Virus record (IMG/VR): IMGVR_UViG_3300034198_013697 | Span: 1-34,261 of that record | From: a virus | Reading direction: 5' to 3' (one strand) | Length of the DNA: 34,261 nucleotides | In this document: positions 2,853 through 30,851 of the stretch, piece by piece | How the letters are laid out: each line of letters opens with the position of its first letter | Position numbering within the stretch: position 1 is the stretch's first letter | Translations under genes and position numbers: made by a program | Notes under the pieces: model-generated | The model's database searches: none | Seen by the model: only the letters and a program-made list of their open reading frames with translations | Told to the model about the DNA's origin: nothing

Positions 2853-3713
2853 TTAAAATTGGGTTGTCACAGTTACTTCGGATATTCGTCCTATCCTGAT
2901 ATAATTTGCCACATCGGTAACAGTGGTCTGCGCTTTATTATTGCATTGGACTTTGATATCATCAACAACAAATTCCAATGTATCACCTGCGTTCATATTT
3001 CTTACAAATTCCGTAGTTATCGATGTGAATCTAAGGTTGTCTACAGGTGAGACACCATATCTTTGGTTTCTATATTGTTGACTGTATCTCAAACTTTGTG
3101 CGTATGCCATTATACATGAATTTGCATTCTTATACGTGGGGTTATTTGCGGTGTTTACTACGTGCTTTGTATACAAGTTAAAAATAGTCCAAACACCGTA
3201 AATATCGTAAGCTGAGAAATCATAATTACTCATGTCTAATGTTAACCTAACGTTAAACTTAAATATATTACTATTTGCTACGGTAAAAACACCTGTTGCG
3301 CTGTTCAGTGTTATCCCCGCTGCGGTGGAAAACTGCGTGTTGTCAGAATAAGCCTGGATTGTGGTTCCGTTAGTATAGTTAATAACGTTTAACGGGTTAT
3401 TCATAACTCCCCGAAGATACGCAGTTGACCCAGAACTTGGGAACGTGGGGGCACCGCCAGACGTCGGAAACAGGAGGTTATAGATAAACGTTGAGTATGT
3501 ATCAAAATATTGGAACCATACTCCAGTGTTGTAGGCTTCATTGTTAACCCAGTCCATTCTAGGTATCTCACCGCCACCTGTAGTTGGGTCATAGATCCAA
3601 CCTATCTGCCTCTTAGCATTACTAGGAGAAGCTTTGACAGCCGATGGTGACGTTGCCCACGTTGGAAACGTTGTAGACGTTGGTTTCGTTGGAAATGTAT
3701 CTTTTACTGCCAT
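2853..3713 (-). CDS. Tail fibre/tip paralogue C of three tandem copies
   Basis: A 286-residue protein. The N-terminal ~75 residues carry the motif shared by all three neighbours: P.WA, then NAKRQIGWIYDPTTGGGE, P.MDWVNNEAYNTGVW, YF, and a hydrophobic end near NLL. Copy A at 4606-5424 has almost the same block (EWVNNEAYNTGIW). The C-terminal two thirds differ between copies and read as a beta sandwich (ATGVFTVANSNIFKFNVRL). The likely role is a virion surface protein whose conserved N-terminus docks on the particle while the C-terminus binds ligand. The start ATG at 3713 has only a weak ribosome site and almost touches the preceding gene. Confidence 0.65.
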   Translation of the reverse strand: MAVKDTFPTKPTSTTFPTWATSPSAVKASPSNAKRQIGWIYDPTTGGGEIPRMDWVNNEAYNTGVWFQYFDTYSTFIYNLLFPTSGGAPTFPSSGSTAYLRGVMNNPLNVINYTNGTTIQAYSDNTQFSTAAGITLNSATGVFTVANSNIFKFNVRLTLDMSNYDFSAYDIYGVWTIFNLYTKHVVNTANNPTYKNANSCIMAYAQSLRYSQQYRNQRYGVSPVDNLRFTSITTEFVRNMNAGDTLEFVVDDIKVQCNNKAQTTVTDVANYIRIGRISEVTVTTQF

Positions 3714-3714
3714 A

Positions 3715-4587
3715 TTACACCAAGTTCCAGTATATGTTACAGGTTACAGGGGAAGAATTTGACCCATAACTAATGGGGCAAAGACTCAGATCCGCAGGTG
3801 TCACTCGATTATTGTAATCAGTGAACCCATAGTTTACATTGTTTATCGAAATAGTTAAAACGTCACCTGATAAACAGTAAACTACATCCTGAAACTTAAC
3901 TTGCCTTAGTGGATTACGATACTGTGAAGTATCATTATTCACATTTATATCCCAGTCAACTTGCCCTTGTGATTGTATCCCAGATACCTTGACACCATTT
4001 TTAAACAATGAAACATTTATGTTATTACTTCCACCACCGACACCATTTCGTGCCCCAGGTGGGTACTGCCCACTCGGCCAGACTACCTTGTAGTATAACC
4101 TATTGTTCGTAGTCACGTTAAGAGCACCTTGAATGTTCACTTCATAGTACCCATCGGCTGGGCAAGTAAATTGTCCCGTAGTGGTATTGTAGGGATTCGT
4201 AGTTATTGTCGAGGGGTACCTTGATAAAGCGACGGTATCCATGACCATAGTGTTCTCTGAGTTAGGTGATACTATAGATTTTACTCCGGAGCTTATAAGA
4301 CTTACAAAGCTTGAAAAATACGAATCCCCTGATTGCGCTGTGTTGAAGAAAGCATTTATATACAATGCAACATTGTTAAAATACTGGCACCATTGACCCA
4401 CTAGGTTCTTGTTAAAGTTTTCATATTGATATGGGAAACGCTCTCCCATCTTTGTAGATGACGCATTGGCATATTCTATCCCAACGTTCCTTTTAGCGTC
4501 ACCTGGGTCTTTTTTATCTGTGTTTCCTGTGGTCACAGCCCAATCAGGTAAATCGTTAGTCGGTGCCGCAGGTGGTGAAAAAGCCAT
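3715..4587 (-). CDS. Tail fibre/tip paralogue B of three tandem copies
   Basis: A 290-residue protein, the most diverged of the three. The N-terminal block is still recognisable (LPDWA, DPGDAKRNVGIEYA, then WCQYFNNVALYIN), but the WVNNEAYNTG segment is replaced. The segment TTGQFTCPADGYYEVNIQGA matches the C1q/TNF-like jelly-roll pattern (P..G.Y......), which is common in receptor-binding tips. An AAGGAG site precedes the ATG. Fold and role are inferred from motif shape. Confidence 0.65.
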   Translation of the reverse strand: MAFSPPAAPTNDLPDWAVTTGNTDKKDPGDAKRNVGIEYANASSTKMGERFPYQYENFNKNLVGQWCQYFNNVALYINAFFNTAQSGDSYFSSFVSLISSGVKSIVSPNSENTMVMDTVALSRYPSTITTNPYNTTTGQFTCPADGYYEVNIQGALNVTTNNRLYYKVVWPSGQYPPGARNGVGGGSNNINVSLFKNGVKVSGIQSQGQVDWDINVNNDTSQYRNPLRQVKFQDVVYCLSGDVLTISINNVNYGFTDYNNRVTPADLSLCPISYGSNSSPVTCNIYWNLV

Positions 4588-12446: not shown

Positions 12447-12490
12447 ATCAAGTCCTTTCTCATTGTGTCCTTTCCTATGCTAATTTAGTA

Positions 12491-12519
12491 TTGACTATGG
12501 GACAAGGTAAAACTAAGAT
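12491..12519 (+). promoter_or_regulatory. Sigma70-like promoter of the tail-operon island gene
   Basis: TTGACT at 12491-12496 and TAAGAT at 12514-12519 are separated by 17 bases. They face right, against the late operon, and the next rightward start is at 12580. Four or five of six bases match the consensus in each box. Predicted by eye. Confidence 0.5.
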
Positions 12520-12525
12520 AACTGT

Positions 12526-12558
12526 GTGAGCTAGGTTTCTTGTCCTTTCCTAGTTCAC
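12526..12558 (+). promoter_or_regulatory. Hairpin in the 5' leader of the island gene
   Basis: GTGAGCTAGG (12526-12535) pairs with CCTAGTTCAC (12549-12558), ten pairs with one G-T, around a 13-base loop. It begins right where a transcript from the promoter at 12491-12519 would start. It could stabilise the leader, be an operator, or end leftward transcripts; no T-run follows on either strand. Confidence 0.45.
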
Positions 12559-12579
12559 GCTCCAAGATACAAGGACTCT

Positions 12580-13017
12580 ATGATGACAACCCCCATTGCA
12601 GTACAAAGATTATTCCTCGAATTACGTGGCAACTTCGCTAACGTTAAAATTAATATAGTCCAAGTTAAAACTGTATTCTGCAACTCCTTTGAAATCGAGT
12701 TAAATTTACCTCGTGGACAAAGTTACGCAGAGGACGTATTTGACTACATTTACAATGTATTTGACAACCAACGAGCCTTTGAGTCTAAGGAACTGTTTGC
12801 AGCGTTCACAAGGGAGATTCGTAACTGGGACTACAAGTACGTCGTTGAGGTCACAGACCTAATTAAACAAGGTTATCAAAGTTTACTTACCATTGGTATT
12901 GAGTACTTCTCAAGGTCACTTGGTATCAAACACCCCGATGCTAACTATGCTCACAGGGTGATGGAACGTGACAAGAAGCAACTGAGAGAACGATTACTCA
13001 AGATGAGTGGCCACTGA
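12580..13017 (+). CDS. Island ('moron'-like) gene inside the tail operon, unknown function
   Basis: A 145-residue protein encoded against the late operon, between the tube and chaperone genes. ATGATG start with AAGGA upstream, its own promoter-like boxes, and a leader hairpin. The N-terminal half is mixed alpha/beta (NVKINIVQVKTVFCNSFEIE), the C-terminal half helical and charged, ending in MERDKKQLRERLLKM. No signal peptide or membrane segment. I do not recognise a family. Independent promoter and antisense placement are the marks of cargo genes added to phage late operons; the function could concern host interaction or regulation of late genes, but nothing in the sequence decides this. Confidence 0.75.
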   Translation: MMTTPIAVQRLFLELRGNFANVKINIVQVKTVFCNSFEIELNLPRGQSYAEDVFDYIYNVFDNQRAFESKELFAAFTREIRNWDYKYVVEVTDLIKQGYQSLLTIGIEYFSRSLGIKHPDANYAHRVMERDKKQLRERLLKMSGH

Positions 13018-13331
13018 AACCTACTGTGAAAGTCCCCACCTCCTTTCTCCAAAAGTGCTCTTTTTTATTTTTTTATTTTTTATATTAAATATATAGAAAT
13101 AGTCACAGTATTTTAGAAGACGAGTAAAATAGCGGGTTTTACCTCTACAATGACTGTGAACCCACTGTGAGCCTGTTTTTGTTATTCAATATTATCAAGG
13201 TTAAATAAAATTGGTATTTTGATAAGAACTGTGAAGTGACTGTAAAACTTGTCTGACAATAAAGCTACCCTGTCACAGGATTGATAACATTGAACAAGTA
13301 TAGCTTTAATAAAATGATAAAAGCTGTTACC
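13018..13331. repeat. Non-coding iteron-like array, copy A
   Basis: 314 bases between two convergent genes. A T-rich/A-rich tract (13060-13098) is followed by CTGTGA/TCACAG elements: CTGTGA at 13024, 13154, 13165 and 13229; TCACAG at 13103 and 13273. The segment 13255-13296 repeats 26097-26138, including 26 identical bases (13271-13296). Relative to TCACAG 13103 the sites lie at +51, +62, +126 and +170; in copy B they lie at +52, +62, +125 and +170. No convincing gene: a short leftward frame at 13265-13462 overlaps the tube gene and the repeat. Confidence 0.8.
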
Positions 13332-13757
13332 TTAAGCTCTGATAACATTGTGAAGAAACAACTGATACGTTCTAACCATATCTGCGGTGTTATTGGAGTA
13401 GTTATCTTGGCTATGGCGTATAAAGTGTGAATTCGCAGACGCCGATGTGTCCGATGGGTCACTGATATTCACTGATGAAAATGGTACATAGAGACCACTA
13501 GTTTGAAACAATATTGCAGCGGCACGAAGTAACTTGTAACTAGGGTTATCATAGTAAACTCTTATTGTCGCAGTAGCAGTGTTATTTGAGGTCATAGTAG
13601 CATGTACTTCGCCATCAGAGCCACTTTCTACGCTAGCAATATCTGCGTTAGGGTTGATATCAAGGTAAGTGCCACCAGCGTAACCAGAGACAATGACGCC
13701 CCCTACTGTGATTACGTGGTTCTGTGGGGAAAATGGAGGTCTTGATACGTTAGCCAT
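13332..13757 (-). CDS. Tail tube protein, DUF3277-like
   Basis: A 141-residue protein just downstream of the sheath gene, with AGGAT before its ATG. Features of the family: FSPQNHVITVGGVIVSGYAG near the N-terminus, a GSDGEVHATMTSNNTATATI segment, and a helix-containing end. The tube is the inner channel of the contractile tail. Sheath followed by tube is the standard order. Its 3' end borders the non-coding array. Confidence 0.85.
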   Translation of the reverse strand: MANVSRPPFSPQNHVITVGGVIVSGYAGGTYLDINPNADIASVESGSDGEVHATMTSNNTATATIRVYYDNPSYKLLRAAAILFQTSGLYVPFSSVNISDPSDTSASANSHFIRHSQDNYSNNTADMVRTYQLFLHNVIRA

Positions 13758-23559: not shown

Positions 23560-23739
23560 ATGATTGAGCCAATGTATTTAGTATCCGCAGCGTACCTTGT
23601 AATCGGAGTGTCTTTTCTATCCTATGTAACAGTGAGCAAAGTGGGAGAAGGGTACAGCGGTATTCTTTGGCACAGGGTAATCATTGCAGCGTTGTTCTGG
23701 CCATTGTTCATGTTCTATTTACTAGTTATCAGAGAGTGA
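23560..23739 (+). CDS. Small two-helix membrane protein, overlapping large terminase
   Basis: A 59-residue protein; ATG 23560 with AAGAGGT upstream. Two hydrophobic segments (MYLVSAAYLVIGVSFLSYV, and HRVIIAALFWPLFMFYLLVI) flank a short basic/polar loop. Its last 11 bases overlap the end of the leftward large terminase gene. Holin-like topology, but the function is unknown. Last gene of the rightward island. Confidence 0.6.
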   Translation: MIEPMYLVSAAYLVIGVSFLSYVTVSKVGEGYSGILWHRVIIAALFWPLFMFYLLVIRE

Positions 23740-25288
23740 ATGTATCACCGAATACAGAGTCTTCCTTAGCAACTTCCTTACCACTATAAAAGTCAGCAAT
23801 GGCTCCTAAGTCCGCAGCGTAATACTTGTCATAGGCAAATATGCAACCAAGCGTCAAAGCGTCTGTGGCGTCATCGTTCTTACCAAAGGGAAAGTTAGCC
23901 ATGCACTTGAGTAAAGGTTCTTGCCATTCTTCGACACCTTCGACAATCTCAGATTCCGTTGGTTGAAGTATGTAAACTTTACCCCTGTTCATCATTGCCT
24001 TAAGTGGCTGTGCCCTAGTTATCTTAGAACCATTCTGCCTAAGTAGCTCAGGGTTTTTACCTTGTACACCTGGTAACTTCTTTAACATTTCCCCATAGTG
24101 CTCACCACCGACACCAGGGTCTAGAGGAAACACAGGCACGCAGTCCCAACCATCGGCTTTACTTGTTTCATCAATGAGCACGTCGTTAGCGTCAACAAGG
24201 CCACGTTGTCCTACCATGTCCACGATAACAATGAAATCTTTGAACACTGCGAACTTAACACCCCTTGTCCAATCTCGCTTCAAGGTATCCTCGGCTATTT
24301 GTCCCCTACGTTCACCAACGCCAGCTAAGTCCCAACTTCTCACGTAACAGCGTGCAGTGTGGGCAATACTATCAAAGTGCTTACGTGTCATAGGTTTCAG
24401 CGTATCTAAGTTGAAGAAGCCACCGTTCATAGCCTGAGGGTCTTGCATCATTTGGGCATTGAATGTGTAGGGGTCATTGCTTTTCATTGCAAGCAGCGTT
24501 TCCGTTGATATACGCTGTGGGAATATGGATTCACCATCAATTAACGCTGGTATCTTTAGATGGACATATTTGTAGTCACTTTGGTTAAGCACAGCGCCGC
24601 TAAGGTCTTCAGGGTGAACACGTTGCTGAAATATGATTAGTGGTACTTTGTTCATATTGTTTCTGCGTGTAATAAAGGTGTTCCAAAGCTTATCAGCGAC
24701 ACCTTGGCGCCTTGTTTCATAGAATGTATCGCTGATTTTATTAGGGTCATCGAATATAAGGTCTCCACCGAAAGGAGTAGCTGTTAAGTCCCCTGCACCA
24801 AAACCCGTTGCCACACCGTATATCGTTGTTGCTAAGAACTCACCACGTTGAGCCGTAGTCCATATACCTGTGGAGTCTTTGCGCATGTTGGAACTAAGCC
24901 CACAAACGTTCTTAAGTACATCTTTGACTTCACGGCTAAACTTGTGACTTAGGTCTTTGGAGTAGGACACGTAGAAAAACTTAGCTGCACCGTTCATTAC
25001 GTAGCACCAAGCCACATAAAGCGTAACTATCAAAGTTTTACCGAAACGAGGGGCAATGTTGATTACTACGATGAAAGTATCATCGGGTAATTGACGCAAT
25101 GCACACTTGGTTAACAAATCACATAGAGCTTTGTGGTGCACTGTGACAATGAACTCAGTGTTATACAGTGCAAAGAAAGTCTCTTTAACAAAGGATAATA
25201 GGTCACGATATTCCCTAGGTTTCTCCATTGACGCATGGTAACGAAGTGCTTTCTCCAGAATCTTTGAGTTAATTGACGTTGGTTTCAT
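23729..25288 (-). CDS. terL: Terminase large subunit
   Basis: A 519-residue packaging motor and nuclease. ATPase: Walker A APRFGKT at residues ~79-85, preceded by a long hydrophobic strand; Walker B FGGDLIFDDP at ~173-182; coupling motif region near 208-223 (TRRNNMNKVPLIIFQQR). Nuclease: YVRSWDLAG with Asp320, FPLDPGVGGEHYG with Asp390, and KNDDATDAL with Asp472/473/476 near the end, a set of acidic residues as in the RNase H fold. Upstream terS overlaps by 4 bases. Together they cut and package DNA through the portal. Confidence 0.95.
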   Translation of the reverse strand: MKPTSINSKILEKALRYHASMEKPREYRDLLSFVKETFFALYNTEFIVTVHHKALCDLLTKCALRQLPDDTFIVVINIAPRFGKTLIVTLYVAWCYVMNGAAKFFYVSYSKDLSHKFSREVKDVLKNVCGLSSNMRKDSTGIWTTAQRGEFLATTIYGVATGFGAGDLTATPFGGDLIFDDPNKISDTFYETRRQGVADKLWNTFITRRNNMNKVPLIIFQQRVHPEDLSGAVLNQSDYKYVHLKIPALIDGESIFPQRISTETLLAMKSNDPYTFNAQMMQDPQAMNGGFFNLDTLKPMTRKHFDSIAHTARCYVRSWDLAGVGERRGQIAEDTLKRDWTRGVKFAVFKDFIVIVDMVGQRGLVDANDVLIDETSKADGWDCVPVFPLDPGVGGEHYGEMLKKLPGVQGKNPELLRQNGSKITRAQPLKAMMNRGKVYILQPTESEIVEGVEEWQEPLLKCMANFPFGKNDDATDALTLGCIFAYDKYYAADLGAIADFYSGKEVAKEDSVFGDTFTL

Positions 25289-25812
25289 GGTTTACCTCGT
25301 TTACTTAGAAACTCTGCATCTGTGGGGCTCATGTTCATTGCTATCTTTGTAGTCTCTAGCTCCACTTTGTCCCTGTGTGCCCTGCGGTTATGCTTCAATG
25401 ATTTCTCTGTTAACTCTAGTTTGCGTTCCTCTACATTGGCACGTTGTTTAGATAGTTCACGCTGTAACTGTGTAGTCGCTAAGTGTTCATCGTAACCAAA
25501 GCGGCTTTGGCACACGTAACGCAGTGCACTGAAAGTTACATTGCTCACATCAGGCATTGCCCCTGTGGCTATCTGCATTAACACTGTGTTTATTGATAAC
25601 TGTGCTCTTGCTTTACCAAGCTCCACAGCCTCAATGATTCTATTGTTAATAAACGAAGCATGTAGAAATGCCCTGATATCAACGTGAAGCAATGTGGCCA
25701 TTGTCCTAGGATCTAAGATACCTACGAAAGCGTAGTTCTCAATAAGTTCGATATCATTGTCACTTGGTTTCCAAGCACTTTGTTCAAAGAGTTCTGTAAT
25801 CGATGTGGTCAT
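25285..25812 (-). CDS. Terminase small subunit-like protein
   Basis: A 175-residue protein. I take ATG 25812 rather than 25821, because GGGAG lies 9 bases before 25812 and only 1 base before the other. The N-terminal half is helical with a possible HTH (DPRTMATLLHVDIRAFLHA), and the C-terminal half is a charged coiled coil (ELSKQRANVEERKLELTEKS). It is translationally coupled to terL (ATGA-type overlap), the normal terS position. It would recognise the packaging site. Family match not verified. Confidence 0.75.
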   Translation of the reverse strand: MTTSITELFEQSAWKPSDNDIELIENYAFVGILDPRTMATLLHVDIRAFLHASFINNRIIEAVELGKARAQLSINTVLMQIATGAMPDVSNVTFSALRYVCQSRFGYDEHLATTQLQRELSKQRANVEERKLELTEKSLKHNRRAHRDKVELETTKIAMNMSPTDAEFLSKRGKP

Positions 25813-25861
25813 AGTAATCATCTCCCTTAGTTAACCTTAGTTTTATTGGATAAATAAGGCA

Positions 25862-25877
25862 ACTGTGATTTCACAGT
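25862..25877. promoter_or_regulatory. Perfect inverted repeat ACTGTGA-TT-TCACAGT
   Basis: Seven-base arms with a 2-base centre, about 50 bases upstream of terS. It contains two facing CTGTGA elements, so it is a plausible binding site for a dimer acting on the late promoter. The other elements of the array are mostly single half-sites. Confidence 0.6.
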
Positions 25878-26235
25878 CGAGGTTCGATGACCCAAAAGGT
25901 GTCTTCTTATTTTTTTTATTTTTTTATAATATATATAGTAATAGTCACAGTGTATGAGAAAACCTTGGTACCAAAGGAAAAGGCACTGTGCAGCAACTGT
26001 GAACCACTGTGAACCCATCAGATTTCCCTTTGTTTACGTAGTATTCTTTTTACAGTGATTTCCCTGTCTCTGTGAACTCCACTGTAACAGCTGGCAGACA
26101 ATAATTACATAGTGTCACAGGATTGATAACATTGAACATCTTAGTCCTTGGTAATTTGATAACATTTTGATAAAGTAACAGAGCTTCCTTGTCACAGTTA
26201 AAACCCTTGGTGCCAAAGAACTTAGTCCTACTACT

Positions 26236-26259
26236 TGACACACAATGAACTATGTGTCA
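26236..26259. promoter_or_regulatory. Inverted repeat operator candidate before the HTH gene
   Basis: TGACACA (26236-26242) and TGTGTCA (26253-26259) are perfect 7-base arms with a 10-base spacer, 25 bases before the HTH start. The position suits autoregulation. The right arm runs into one of the TCACAG elements. TTGACA at 26235-26240 could be a -35 box, but no -10 lies at 16-18 bases. Confidence 0.5.
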
Positions 26260-26284
26260 CAGTATATTTAAGGAGGAAGGAACT

Positions 26285-26677
26285 ATGAACACAGAAATGG
26301 AGTTACATGAGCTCGCAGGTGTCATTGGTATCAGTGTTAGAACATTGTACCGAGCACTTCGTAAAGCCGATGTTCGCATTGATTACAAGGTTAGTCATAG
26401 AGGTAAGCGTAAATCAGTGGTCACAGTTAACGATGTGGTCATATCACACATAAAGGAGGCACTATGTAAACGCAGCTTTAGACCAAAGCGTCTTGATAAC
26501 TTGGTTGGTTTGTTCTATATCGTTAAGGATGGATTGACACTAAGAGAATTTAAGATTGCTGTGAACGATGTAGTCAGCATAACAGAGACAAGCTGTTTCA
26601 ATGGTCTGTTTACGTACACAATGATAACTTGGGATAACACAGTCTACGAAGTAACAACTAGGGAGAAATTGAAATGA
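26285..26677 (+). CDS. HTH regulator with small C-terminal beta domain
   Basis: A 130-residue protein. AAGGAGGAAGG lies just before ATG 26285, so I reject the start at 26252. Residues ~6-27 form a MerR/excisionase-like HTH (ELAGVIGISVRTLYRALRKA), with a basic wing (SHRGKRKSVVTVNDVV). Residues ~75-130 are a beta domain (LTLREFKIAVNDVVSIT ... TYTMITWDNTVYEV) related to the next gene. As first gene of the early operon, next to the array and the palindrome, it is the best candidate to bind CTGTGA elements. Its 3' end overlaps the next gene by 4 bases. Confidence 0.75.
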   Translation: MNTEMELHELAGVIGISVRTLYRALRKADVRIDYKVSHRGKRKSVVTVNDVVISHIKEALCKRSFRPKRLDNLVGLFYIVKDGLTLREFKIAVNDVVSITETSCFNGLFTYTMITWDNTVYEVTTREKLK

Positions 26678-26901: not shown

Positions 26902-26928
26902 AAAACCCCCATTGTTCGCGCAATGAGG
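26897..26928 (-). terminator. Intrinsic terminator for leftward transcription
   Basis: Read on the minus strand: CCTCATTG (from 26928), loop CGCGAA, CAATGGGG, then TTTTTTATTT. The stem is 8 pairs with one G-T. On the plus strand that position is a C-A mismatch and no T-run follows, so the structure is better for leftward transcripts, although all nearby genes run right. It overlaps the stop of the 26674 gene. Confidence 0.55.
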
Positions 26929-26953
26929 ATTCAAAAAATGAGGACTATAGTAC

Positions 26954-28492
26954 ATGAATAGTAACATGCTAGCGGACTTTCCGCAATCTAAAAAGTATTC
27001 TTTTTTCCTAAGAAACGGTGAGCTTAAGGTAAATAATGTAATCTCTGGTAAGTCAGGCTCACTGACCGCAGCGGTTATGAATGAACTTAAGAATGAGTGG
27101 AAATTGCACGAAGATATCCTTGCACAAGAGATATCAAGGATACGCCATAGCCTAATTGCCGTTGAGAATGAGAAAGAGAAGGCTAATCTTAAAGAGATTT
27201 CTAAGCACACAGATAACACAATGATGACTAAGGATGAGATGAAACAGTACTATGAGTCCTGTTACTACTTCATGACTAAGTCCATGGGTGATGGTTGGCT
27301 CATTGACCTTGAGAATCATAAATTTACAATGATTGACAAGAGTGCCATAGCCGATGTGATTGAAGATAAGGACGAGAACAAGGCTTACTGGAAATCAAGG
27401 TATTTCATTGGTAAACGTGAATACAATCCACATAAGCACTCAATACTATACGATGTGGTCGATGGTAACATTACATATAAAGCAATGAATACTTATTACT
27501 TGCCAACATGGAAGAAAGAGTATCCAAAGCCACCTGTGCAACTAGACCCTTTGTTAGTTAAGTTCTTTAAGCACTTGTTTCCAGAGCGTGATTGTCAACT
27601 CTACATCATGGACTGGATAGCGAACTCTATGTTCACTCGTAACATGTGCTACTTGATACTCATTGGTGAGAAACGTGTAGGCAAAGGTCTCTTGGTTGAT
27701 ATGATTTCCCGTGTACATCGTAGGGAAAACGTGCAAACAAGGTCATCTGAGCAAGCCTACGACTTGTATGATGGTGACTTAGCATTCACGACCGTTGTGA
27801 GCTTTGATGAAATAACCATTTGCAATAGTAAGCAATACAATTACTTAAAGACTTTTGCCAATGATTACAAGAACTATCGAGCCATGCACTCAGAGAGTTT
27901 TACTGCAAACAATTACGCAAACGTTATTATTACTTTGAACAAAGAGTCGTCCATATCAGCACTAGACACACAAGACGGGAGGTTATCAGTGCCAAAGTTA
28001 ACAAGTAAGAAATTAGTTGAGTCATTCACAGAGGAAGAAAGAAAGAGATTATGGACAGACGACAGCTTGATTGAGAACCTGGTTGCTTACTGTTTCCATA
28101 GTAAACCAACTCGTGATATGGCCGTGAGACACGTCAACTTAGAAGAACTTGAGAAGGTCACGACTCTTGCAATGCCTAACTATATGGCCGAATTTCTAGA
28201 AATTTGCCGTGAACTTATGCTCAAAGAGTTCAAGAATTTAGACGGGGCACTAAAAGCATATAATGATTCAGGTAACAAGAACTTTAAGTTTGTAATACCT
28301 ACAAACATAGTGTCAAAGGCTATCGTGCGCTGTGAAGACCATAAGAACCCTGATTTACGTAGTATCTCACAGAACAAGTTACATAAGTTCTTTGTGAATC
28401 ACCCTGAATCAGGGAAAACTATGCGCCAGACTTCGGAGACTAAGTATAAGATTTTGACAAACAATGATTTACTGGGTATTGCTACAAAATAA
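26954..28492 (+). CDS. Replicative primase-helicase (SF3/DUF5906-like)
   Basis: A 512-residue protein; GAGGA lies before ATG 26954. Walker A GEKRVGKG at ~238-245 (after a hydrophobic strand CYLILI), Walker B VVSFDE at ~281-286, sensor VIITLNK at ~324-330, and an Arg-containing GRLSVPKL at ~342-349, all in SF3/DUF5906 order. The N-terminal 200 residues hold no zinc-finger or TOPRIM motif I recognise, so primase activity is unproven. It would unwind DNA for the polymerase encoded next. The frame contains long charged helices near 45-85. Hairpin at the stop codon. Confidence 0.85.
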   Translation: MNSNMLADFPQSKKYSFFLRNGELKVNNVISGKSGSLTAAVMNELKNEWKLHEDILAQEISRIRHSLIAVENEKEKANLKEISKHTDNTMMTKDEMKQYYESCYYFMTKSMGDGWLIDLENHKFTMIDKSAIADVIEDKDENKAYWKSRYFIGKREYNPHKHSILYDVVDGNITYKAMNTYYLPTWKKEYPKPPVQLDPLLVKFFKHLFPERDCQLYIMDWIANSMFTRNMCYLILIGEKRVGKGLLVDMISRVHRRENVQTRSSEQAYDLYDGDLAFTTVVSFDEITICNSKQYNYLKTFANDYKNYRAMHSESFTANNYANVIITLNKESSISALDTQDGRLSVPKLTSKKLVESFTEEERKRLWTDDSLIENLVAYCFHSKPTRDMAVRHVNLEELEKVTTLAMPNYMAEFLEICRELMLKEFKNLDGALKAYNDSGNKNFKFVIPTNIVSKAIVRCEDHKNPDLRSISQNKLHKFFVNHPESGKTMRQTSETKYKILTNNDLLGIATK

Positions 28493-28611: not shown

Positions 28612-30510
28612 ATGAAAAACTTTACAAATGTTTACATTGATATGGAGTATAGAAAAAACGACGTTACAGGAACCTTTAAACTGATATGTGTGTCTTTAGA
28701 AGTAGATGAGTTGGTAACATCATTTGATTTGAGACACGATGACAAAGATTTTAAAGATTTTATTAATAAGTTAAGTAATCCATTATTTATAGCGTACAAC
28801 GTAGCAGGTGCAGAGGGTCAGGCGTTAACTCAGATAATGGGTCACAAATGGATGTTGAAAACGAACTGGATTGACTTATGGGTAGAATTTAAGCAGTATT
28901 CTTTAACACATCCCGATTATATGAATCAAAAGAACGGTATAACTACGGCTTTGGATACCTTTGAGATACCATATAACGCTGATAAAGAGGGAACCCGTGA
29001 GATTATCTTAGGTAACGATGAGTACACAGACGCTCAGATGGCTCAGATTATCAAGTACTGTGAAGCCGATGTTCTATCTTTGAGACCATTAGCACGTAAG
29101 TTGTTCATTATTGGCCAAGATTACGGTGTAACCCTTGATGATATGATTGAACGTGGTCGCTATTGTCGCAACGTTGGCGTATCTCAGTTCTGTTCACGTG
29201 GTTTCCCAATGGACAAAGAGTTAACAAAGGCTGTCTTTAATAATCGTCAGAAGCTGCGCAATGCACTTAGTGCTCAATGTAACGAAGTGACAGGGTTCAA
29301 GATATACAAAGAAAATACTAAGGGTCGTGGTGAACACAAAGTCTTTACACATTATAGCTTTAGCTTCAGCGAATTCGCTGAATACCTTGAGTCTAAGGGT
29401 CTGCTACATACTTGGAAACGCACAGAGGCTGGTAGACTTTGCATGGAAGAGGACTATGTAGACGAAATGGTCAGCGGTTACAAGACAATCATCGAGCCTG
29501 TGTACTTAGCACGCAATACATTGAAGCAATTGAACTCCACAGACCTCAGCGCAATCATGGATGACGATGGATACATTAGACCTGATTATTGGGTATTTCA
29601 TCAAAAGACTTCAAGGACAAGTCCTAAGCCAGCCAAAGGGTTCATAATGAATCTATGCCCTTGGTTACGTATGCTATGCAGACCAGCGCCAGGACGTGCC
29701 CTTGTTACCATAGACTTTAAGTCCCAAGAGGTCTTAGTAGCTGCGGCGTTAGCTAAAGATTACTCAATGCTCGAAGATTACTTGACCGATATTTACCTTG
29801 GTCAAGGTAAGAAGACTGGGTTTATTCCTAAGGAAGCTACAAAGAAGTCACATAAAACAATGCGCGACGGATTTAAGCCCGTGGTCTTAGGTACTAGTTT
29901 TGGAATGCAAGCGAAGTCATTGTCAATACATTTTTACAACTTCTGGAAAGATCTTGGTATCGAGAAAGACCTAGGTGACTGCGAGTCCGACGCTCGTGAG
30001 TTTCTTTACAATCACAAGGAGTCGTATGCAGCGTACTATGATTTCATTGCTGACACGCTGTATTCTATGAAAGACAACGGATACATAGAGACTGTGGACG
30101 CTTGGAAGTACTTTTATTCCCGTGGTATGCGTGAGAACTCGGTTAAGAATCTTAAAATGCAAGGTAACGGTGCAGCAATGACTCGTCGGGCTAGTAACTA
30201 TTGTATCGAGGACTACAATGTTTGGGTTATCCCACTGCACGACGCTGTTTACTTTGAATGCGCAGAGTCCGAAGCTGTAGAGTTAGCCAAAAAAGTCAGC
30301 GCTGCAATGGTTCAAGCGAGCATTGATACCTTGGGTGAAGAGTTCGGTAAGCACATGGGTACAGCGACACAGATATTCACGCACACTATGCCTTACTATG
30401 ATAAACGTGGTGAGACAATGTATCGCCGAGTAACTAAGGAACTAGGTTTCCCTTGTCCCGAGGAATTTACGAAGCCACCAGAGATTGAGAACATCCACAA
30501 CCCAGCGTAA
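28612..30510 (+). CDS. Family A DNA polymerase with N-terminal 3'-5' exonuclease
   Basis: A 632-residue replicative polymerase; AAGGAC precedes ATG 28612. Exonuclease: YIDME with Asp10/Glu12, AYNVAGAEGQAL at ~61-72 and the YCEADV motif with Asp153, i.e. a DEDD-type domain. Polymerase: RTSPKPAKGF at ~335-344, motif A TIDFKSQE with Asp368, motif B RDGFKPVVLGTSFGM at ~418-432, QGNGAA at ~517-522, and motif C LHDAVYFEC with His543/Asp544. Motif C is usually His-Asp-Glu; here the Glu is Ala545. The gene ends in a rightward terminator. It works with the primase-helicase in the same operon. Confidence 0.95.
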   Translation: MKNFTNVYIDMEYRKNDVTGTFKLICVSLEVDELVTSFDLRHDDKDFKDFINKLSNPLFIAYNVAGAEGQALTQIMGHKWMLKTNWIDLWVEFKQYSLTHPDYMNQKNGITTALDTFEIPYNADKEGTREIILGNDEYTDAQMAQIIKYCEADVLSLRPLARKLFIIGQDYGVTLDDMIERGRYCRNVGVSQFCSRGFPMDKELTKAVFNNRQKLRNALSAQCNEVTGFKIYKENTKGRGEHKVFTHYSFSFSEFAEYLESKGLLHTWKRTEAGRLCMEEDYVDEMVSGYKTIIEPVYLARNTLKQLNSTDLSAIMDDDGYIRPDYWVFHQKTSRTSPKPAKGFIMNLCPWLRMLCRPAPGRALVTIDFKSQEVLVAAALAKDYSMLEDYLTDIYLGQGKKTGFIPKEATKKSHKTMRDGFKPVVLGTSFGMQAKSLSIHFYNFWKDLGIEKDLGDCESDAREFLYNHKESYAAYYDFIADTLYSMKDNGYIETVDAWKYFYSRGMRENSVKNLKMQGNGAAMTRRASNYCIEDYNVWVIPLHDAVYFECAESEAVELAKKVSAAMVQASIDTLGEEFGKHMGTATQIFTHTMPYYDKRGETMYRRVTKELGFPCPEEFTKPPEIENIHNPA

Positions 30511-30527
30511 CAACTGGGTTTTTCTTT
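30499..30527 (+). terminator. Rho-independent terminator after the polymerase gene
   Basis: AACCCAG (30499-30505), 8-base loop, CTGGGTT (30514-30520), then TTTCTTT. The 7-bp stem includes the stop codon in its loop. It separates the replication genes from the downstream small-gene operon. Confidence 0.75.
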
Positions 30528-30561
30528 GTGACAAAAATTCTTTGACCCGTCGCTTGACTTT

Positions 30562-30776
30562 GGATGCCACGAGTGGCATCCTTAGAACAGGAAGAGTGAT
30601 AGCTCTGACAGCAACGAGAGTCTAGGGGAAGCAGCGAACGGTGCCTCTAGGAGTACAAGGGAACCCAACTACATAGGGTTTGACCATATAGCAGTGAGAC
30701 CTGCTTCAAGTTGAATTGATTTCAACGATGACAACGTAAACAACGTAAAGTAGTTCCTGTGGTGCGGTTTCACCAC
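30562..30776 (+). ncRNA. Hairpin-rich non-coding region, candidate structured RNA
   Basis: 341 bases (30511-30851) have no convincing frame. Seven hairpins lie here: GGATGCCA-CGAG-TGGCATCC (30562-30581); CTCT/AGAG (30603/30617), with AGAG at 30593 as alternative partner; CTAGGGG/CCTCTAG (30622-30628/30644-30650); AACCC/GGGTT (30662-30680); AGCAG/CTGCT (30690-30705); GTTGAA/TTCAAC (30710-30726); GTGGTG/CACCAC (30759-30776). A repeat ACAACGTAAACAACGTAAA sits at 30731-30749. Polarity is assumed rightward from neighbours. I recognise no known RNA class and no strong promoter. A leader of the 30852 operon is the other reading. Confidence 0.5.
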
Positions 30777-30851
30777 GTTAAAACATAAACACATCGGGAC
30801 AAAATACATAGTTTCCATTGTCACTTTGCAATTAATACTAGGAGACACAAT

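Follow-up and report, generated by a model that had tools for sequence, protein, structure and literature searches.

The window analysed here, a stretch of viral DNA of 34,261 bases (IMG/VR record IMGVR_UViG_3300034198_013697), contains two non-coding regions in which the same hexamer, CTGTGA or its complement TCACAG, recurs at matching intervals next to an AT-rich tract. One region lies among late genes and the other beside replication genes, which raises the question of what a phage would use two such arrays for. The answer favoured here, that both are origin-like sites, is well supported but unproven.

Genome context of the two arrays

The window was found to fall wholly inside contig IMGVR_UViG_3300032269_000993 (designated G001), with 100% identity where compared; the 123-bp direct terminal repeat of this contig indicates a complete circle of 45,138 bp, the genome of a bacterial virus. 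Its late genes run leftward and encode a contractile tail (sheath and baseplate), portal and terminase. The early genes run rightward from position 26,285 and encode a helix-turn-helix (HTH) protein, a small protein, a DUF5906/SF3-type helicase-primase and a family A DNA polymerase, followed by a PDDEXK exonuclease and lysis genes.

Copy A (13018..13331) is located in the late region between the 3' ends of a lone plus-strand gene (12580..13017; 145 aa, moron-like, no family match) and a minus-strand gene for a virion structural protein (13332..13757; PHROG 280), a convergent arrangement which a preliminary description of the locus had reported and which holds. Among the gaps that separate called genes in the window it ranks third in size, and it carries 6 of the 15 non-coding CTGTGA sites. 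Copy B (25822..26284), the largest such gap, separates the divergent HTH gene (26285..26677, plus strand) and a minus-strand gene (25285..25821) which is small-terminase-like by its position upstream of the large terminase; the latter protein gave no match in a family search and is 46% identical to its counterparts in two relatives, G002 and G003. Copy B thus adjoins the genes for the HTH protein, the SF3-type helicase and the polymerase, with the terminase gene on its divergent side, and copy A lies 12.84 kb away on the 45,138-bp circle.

The HTH protein is a candidate array binder and/or regulator. Its orthologue in G002 resembles HTH_17, a weak match below the curated cut-off, and its N-terminal part is predicted to fold as E-H-H-E-E-H (pLDDT about 80), for which a fold search gave no confident match. 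The DUF5906 protein (26954..28492, plus strand; Pfam PF19263, 8e-9; PHROG 1156, DNA primase) is SF3-type helicase/primase-like and a candidate initiator; there was no solved relative by sequence and the predicted (AlphaFold) model was poor. The family A polymerase is encoded at 28612..30510 (plus strand; Pfam PF00476, 3e-15). No DnaB or helicase-loader match was obtained among the replication and early proteins scanned, Rfam and tRNA searches returned nothing, and two scans of genome contigs for host prophages found none.

A promoter-like sequence (TTGACT-17-TAAGAT) was noted at 12447-12579, before the lone plus-strand gene adjoining copy A, and its start, TTGACTATGGG, is also found before the HTH gene of a further relative, G004. 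Another promoter-like sequence, TTGACTTTGGATGCCACGAGTGGCATCCT, at 30511-30851, has a palindrome between its two hexamers and a similar copy outside the window, at about position 36626 of the G001 contig; these sites are perhaps the operator of an early or middle promoter.

Organisation of the arrays

In copy A, CTGTGA was located on the plus strand at 13024, 13154, 13165 and 13229 and on the minus strand at 13103 and 13273; in copy B it was located on the plus strand at 25863, 25997, 26007 and 26070 and on the minus strand at 25871, 25945, 26115, 26192 and 26257. When offsets are counted from the TCACAG that follows the AT tract (13103..13108 in copy A, 25945..25950 in copy B, both minus strand), the sites of copy A lie at 0, 51, 62, 126, 137 and 170 and those of copy B at 0, 52, 62, 125, 137 and 170, so that the oriented spacings agree within 1 bp. 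The intact sites among these reproduce exactly the intervals given in the preliminary description (+51/+62/+126/+170 and +52/+62/+125/+170), and the site at +137 is a degenerate CTGTAA common to both copies. At 10.5 bp per turn the core sites fall near whole helical turns (0, 4.9, 5.9, 12.0, 13.05 and 16.2).

The sites at about +51 and +62 form a plus-strand tandem pair, ACTGTGAACCCACTGTGA with an 11-bp step in copy A (13153..13170) and ACTGTGAACCACTGTGAACCC with a 10-bp step in copy B (25996..26016), the latter being identical in G002 and G003. A second plus-strand pair joins ACTGTGA to the degenerate ACTGTAA in copy A (13228..13245) and CTGTGA to CTGTAA in copy B (26070..26087), and GACAATAA is found at +152 in both. 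The block of 26 identical bases reported previously (TGTCACAGGATTGATAACATTGAACA, a TCACAG site plus TTGATAACATTGAACA) was recovered at 13271..13296 and 26113..26138. Outside this core, copy A has one plus-strand site upstream of its AT tract (13024..13029), and copy B has a palindromic pair, ACTGTGATTTCACAGT, upstream of the small-terminase-like gene (25862..25877). A CRP-like site was considered for the element and rejected, the spacer of the palindrome being 2 bp and not 6 bp.

The AT tracts lie at 13061..13095 (copy A) and 25907..25941 (copy B), resemble unwinding elements and contain 30-mers of 0% GC. Only eight 30-mers in the whole 45-kb genome are without G or C, and all of them start within these tracts (at 13061-13066 and 25907-25908). 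The tract of copy A is the stronger of the two, with the lowest-GC 60-mer of the genome starting at 13059.

Frequency, spacing and sequence divergence

The hexamer was counted on both strands of the window, giving 46 sites where 20.6 were expected, a number reached in 0 of 100 shuffles. All 15 of the non-coding sites lie within copy A or copy B, and the density is 7.3 per kb in non-coding and 1.0 per kb in coding DNA. ACTGTGA is also the top 7-mer of the whole G001 genome when words are ranked by clustering at two places (5+5 copies; at most 3+3 in shuffles), and the same scan of nine unrelated viral contigs or contig pieces gave at most 4+4, with A/T-rich words.

The four spacing matches listed in the preliminary description would arise by random placement with a probability of about 3 in 10 million (analytic estimate), a figure which is no independent test since the two copies are probably paralogous. 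That description had also stated that most bases between the sites are diverged. Divergence was confirmed, although the filler is not random: an ungapped comparison gave 41% identity, a value that none of 2000 shuffles reached (shuffled filler, 27%), and the excess takes in the CTGTAA and GACAATAA blocks. When gaps were allowed there was no excess (56% against a null of 58%). Most of the filler has diverged, then, apart from a few blocks that are better conserved, and the observation as a whole is real and stronger than was first stated.

The suggested check by GC skew did not mark an origin; neither overall skew nor skew at four-fold sites singled out copy A or copy B. No DnaA-box-like match was present in either copy, as would be expected if a phage protein initiates replication.

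Copy A had no DNA similarity in annotated phages. A 16-mer scan of viral contigs returned 22 stretches, of which two were G001 itself and the others had no nucleotide similarity to the window, and a scan for the tandem pair returned the known relatives and three contigs for which no similarity to the window could be detected, two of these having the match in coding sequence. Tail sheath and helicase scans gave no further relatives. Four CTGTGAAC words were observed within about 200 bp (L030, about 3090-3290) of G014, a contig of a phage that likewise shows no detectable similarity to the window.

Arrays in related genomes

G002 (22.6 kb) and G003 (23.0 kb) are both incomplete; their helicases are 69% identical to that of G001, while their late module and large terminase are unrelated to those of G001. 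At the place of copy B both contain an AT tract, the identical 21-bp tandem pair and flanking TCACAG sites, together with an additional word, AGTTCGA. An HNH-like open reading frame lies between the array and the HTH gene in G003 (L026, 8783-9301) and is missing from G002.

The fourth genome, G004 (IMGVR_UViG_3300036979_000283), is regarded as a complete circle of 39,434 bp because it carries a 105-bp terminal repeat. Its polymerase is 78% identical to that of G001, whereas the SF3-type helicases of the two phages share only 23% identity over 252 aa and its HTH protein likewise differs. No CTGTGA array was found in this complete genome. It has instead two arrays of the element CAAGAGAT, CAAGAGA(T): R1 (39021-39256 on the reverse complement of the contig), on the replication side between the small-terminase-like and HTH genes, and R2 (23631-23869, likewise on the reverse complement), in the late region beside an Ant-like (antirepressor) gene. 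R1 and R2 together hold 12 of the 16 CAAGAGA and 10 of the 12 AAGAGAT copies, and CAAGAGA is the top two-place word of the genome (6+6). They lie about 15.4 kb apart in 39.4 kb. R1 and inverted R2 are 69% identical over 131 bp, share an identical CTTTAAAAAAAGTT tract and have near-equal spacings (9, 32/42 and 33 bp); R1 has one element and 10 bp, about one helical turn, more than R2. The AT tract is short and less extreme than in G001. The two arrays are inverted relative to each other, though both flank leftward operons.

The absence of CTGTGA arrays from a related phage had been named in advance as a finding that would count against the pattern. The word is indeed missing from G004, but the two-array layout is kept with another element, and in G001 and G004 alike the two members of the pair match. 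That both arrays changed element together points to one binder that needs both. Copy A was seen in one phage genome (G001) and R2 in one (G004). Since G002 and G003 are incomplete, no second array is seen in them; the sequence of G003 breaks off at the point where one would begin, 15 bp beyond the gene bordering R2 in G004, and those bases contain one more AGTTCGA word.

Two further features of the replication region were observed. A hairpin precedes the helicase gene at 26904-26930 of the window and at the same place in L025, L026 and G004, with compensatory changes in its stem (CATTG/CAATG in G001, GTTA/TAAC in the other three). The DNA polymerase gene is split at an identical place by about 730 bp containing an open reading frame in L025 (12954-13687) and in G004 (reverse complement 3796-4526); the frame in L025 is HNH-like, as judged by eye, and an Rfam search of this insert matched no known intron.

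Proposed function and alternative explanations

Copies A and B are probably dual initiator-binding replication sites, with copy B as the primary origin and copy A as a second origin or fork barrier. Among the functions proposed when the locus was first described, an iteron-type origin with an unwinding tract fits best; packaging, partition and boundary sites are less likely. Each array would be a copy of one cis-element, in which initiator sites adjoin an AT tract that melts, and one phage protein would bind both arrays and melt the adjacent tract. Either the DUF5906/SF3-type helicase-primase or the HTH protein encoded next to copy B, or the two together, would probably be the initiator, and ACTGTGAAC is the array word that these proteins may bind. 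Between G001 and G002, which share the array element, the helicase is far more conserved (69% identity) than the HTH protein (29%), so that the choice of binder leans toward the helicase. The primary origin would be copy B, or R1 in G004, which adjoins the replication genes; copy A, 12.84 kb away among late genes, and R2 in G004 would be a second initiator-bound site. The latter could be a second origin, or a barrier at which stalled forks would change from circle-to-circle replication to concatemer synthesis, the role suggested for oriR of Bacillus phage SPP1. Binding, melting, the division into primary and secondary sites and the barrier step are all inferred. In favour of the interpretation are the confinement of GC-free 30-mers to the two copies, the position of copy B beside the replication genes, the persistence of its AT tract and tandem pair in G002 and G003, and the paired arrays of G004; against it count the uninformative GC skew, the short AT tract of G004, the incompleteness of G002 and G003 and the sighting of copy A in a single phage genome.

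An unlikely, though reasoned, alternative is that the HTH regulator acts on the arrays as operators or as control regions of late operons, copy B serving the divergent terminase and replication operons and copy A the leftward tail genes. Copy B does lie between divergent promoters with the HTH gene next to it, a CTGTGA-like site occurs in or near the putative HTH-gene promoter of G001 and G002, and R2 is upstream of the Ant-like gene. Copy A, on the other hand, is placed between two convergent 3' ends and contains no minus-strand promoter-like match, and an operator would need neither the most AT-rich tract of the genome nor six sites whose spacing is kept across 170 bp. The mutual inversion of R1 and R2 beside operons of the same direction argues that array orientation bears no relation to transcription. 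In addition, TGTGTCA, part of a promoter-proximal element, is common to G001 and G004 despite their different arrays, and this element therefore appears separate from the array. Rather improbable, too, is an arrangement like that of P4, with copy B as the origin and copy A as a cis replication region (crr) which the helicase-primase must also bind, by looping, and at which nothing initiates. Two distant regions with an equal iteron, one of them beside an SF3-type helicase-primase gene, and the free orientation of R1 and R2 agree with it. Against it, the AT tract of copy A is stronger than that of copy B, whereas P4 crr is not known to have the AT tract of its origin, and a domain search gave the SF3-like DUF5906 match but none of the P4 alpha type.

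Partition (centromere-like) or packaging sites are very unlikely. Centromeres have repeat arrays of such size and copy B adjoins a small-terminase-like gene; however, no ParA, ParB or integrase was found among the early proteins scanned, one start site suffices for packaging, and G002 and G003 keep the tandem pair despite an unrelated large terminase and late module. That copy A survives as a relic of some former duplication or exchange of modules and has no present function is scarcely probable: this copy was seen in one phage genome only, yet it retains its spacing and AT tract while most of the filler has diverged, and G004 has an independent R1/R2 pair.

The dual-origin interpretation can be extended, tentatively and with some doubt, to the proposal that, in an undescribed group of phages whose helicases are of SF3 type, paired origin or fork-barrier arrays behave as a replication module open to exchange; replacement of the initiator would entail replacement of both arrays, and the second site would be essential and evolve in concert with the first.

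Comparison with known systems

Chi-like phages (Casjensviridae, e.g. SeWh-1) also have an SF3/DUF5906-type primase, but only a single array was found among them: in SeWh-1 (MH791395.1, about 59534-59800), seven GTTACAA words lie within 260 bp near the DUF5906-type primase gene, possibly a single origin. No such array pair was found in a Silvanigrella phage. Iteron plasmid origins (oriV with RepA, RepE or TrfA) share with the present arrays helically phased repeats that adjoin an AT-rich tract and lie close to a gene for a DNA-binding protein; the elements of G001 differ in being short (6-9 bp), in both orientations and at two loci, with no DnaA box and no Rep-family protein among the proteins scanned.

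In satellite phage P4, one iteron is present at both ori and crr, both of which are required, alpha is an SF3-type helicase-primase, and crr is not known to have the AT tract of the origin. G001 is similar in having one iteron at two distant cis regions and an SF3-type helicase-primase as the likely initiator. It differs in giving no P4 alpha-type match, in having an AT tract at both sites, and in being a phage of full size that encodes a polymerase of its own.

Among phages, two origins in one genome are well documented chiefly for SPP1, and the reason for keeping a second initiator site among late genes, fork stalling that leads to concatemers, is still a model. As published descriptions, on which this comparison rests, have it, the circularised 44-kb genome of SPP1 has two similar origins about 12-13 kb apart, each combining direct repeats with an AT-rich DUE; the second of them lies among late genes with morons, and the initiator bound at oriR is proposed to stall forks so that concatemer synthesis starts (PMC6316719, PMC3485210). 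Binding of both sites by one initiator and a theta to sigma switch also belong to the SPP1 type. The paired element was at first thought to be of an unlisted bipartite kind, a view that does not stand, oriL and oriR of SPP1 having an equal two-site layout. The likeness covers two sites of similar build, with repeats and an AT-rich tract, in G001 as in G004 (R1 and R2); their distance (12.84 kb on the 45.1-kb circle of G001 and about 15.4 kb on the 39.4-kb circle of G004); and a moron-like setting, copy A being beside the lone plus-strand gene without a family match and R2 beside the Ant-like gene. As to differences, oriL lies inside the initiator gene (gp38, G38P) whereas copy B is intergenic, and SPP1 uses a helicase loader and DnaB-type helicase (gp39, gp40) with the host polymerase, unlike G001 with its DUF5906/SF3-type protein and its own family A polymerase. 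The initiator type being different, G001 is not a member of the SPP1 family.

The two-array layout is thus found here in phages whose replication proteins are unlike those of SPP1, with both repeats differing jointly between G001 and G004. If the dual-origin interpretation is true, this suggests that the layout either evolved repeatedly or has a wide distribution and that the second site is under selection, and it would provide a signature for virome searches, namely one word clustered at two non-coding places, one of them beside a helicase gene. The arrays of G001 most likely represent a variation on the two-origin layout of the SPP1 kind, served by replication proteins of another class.
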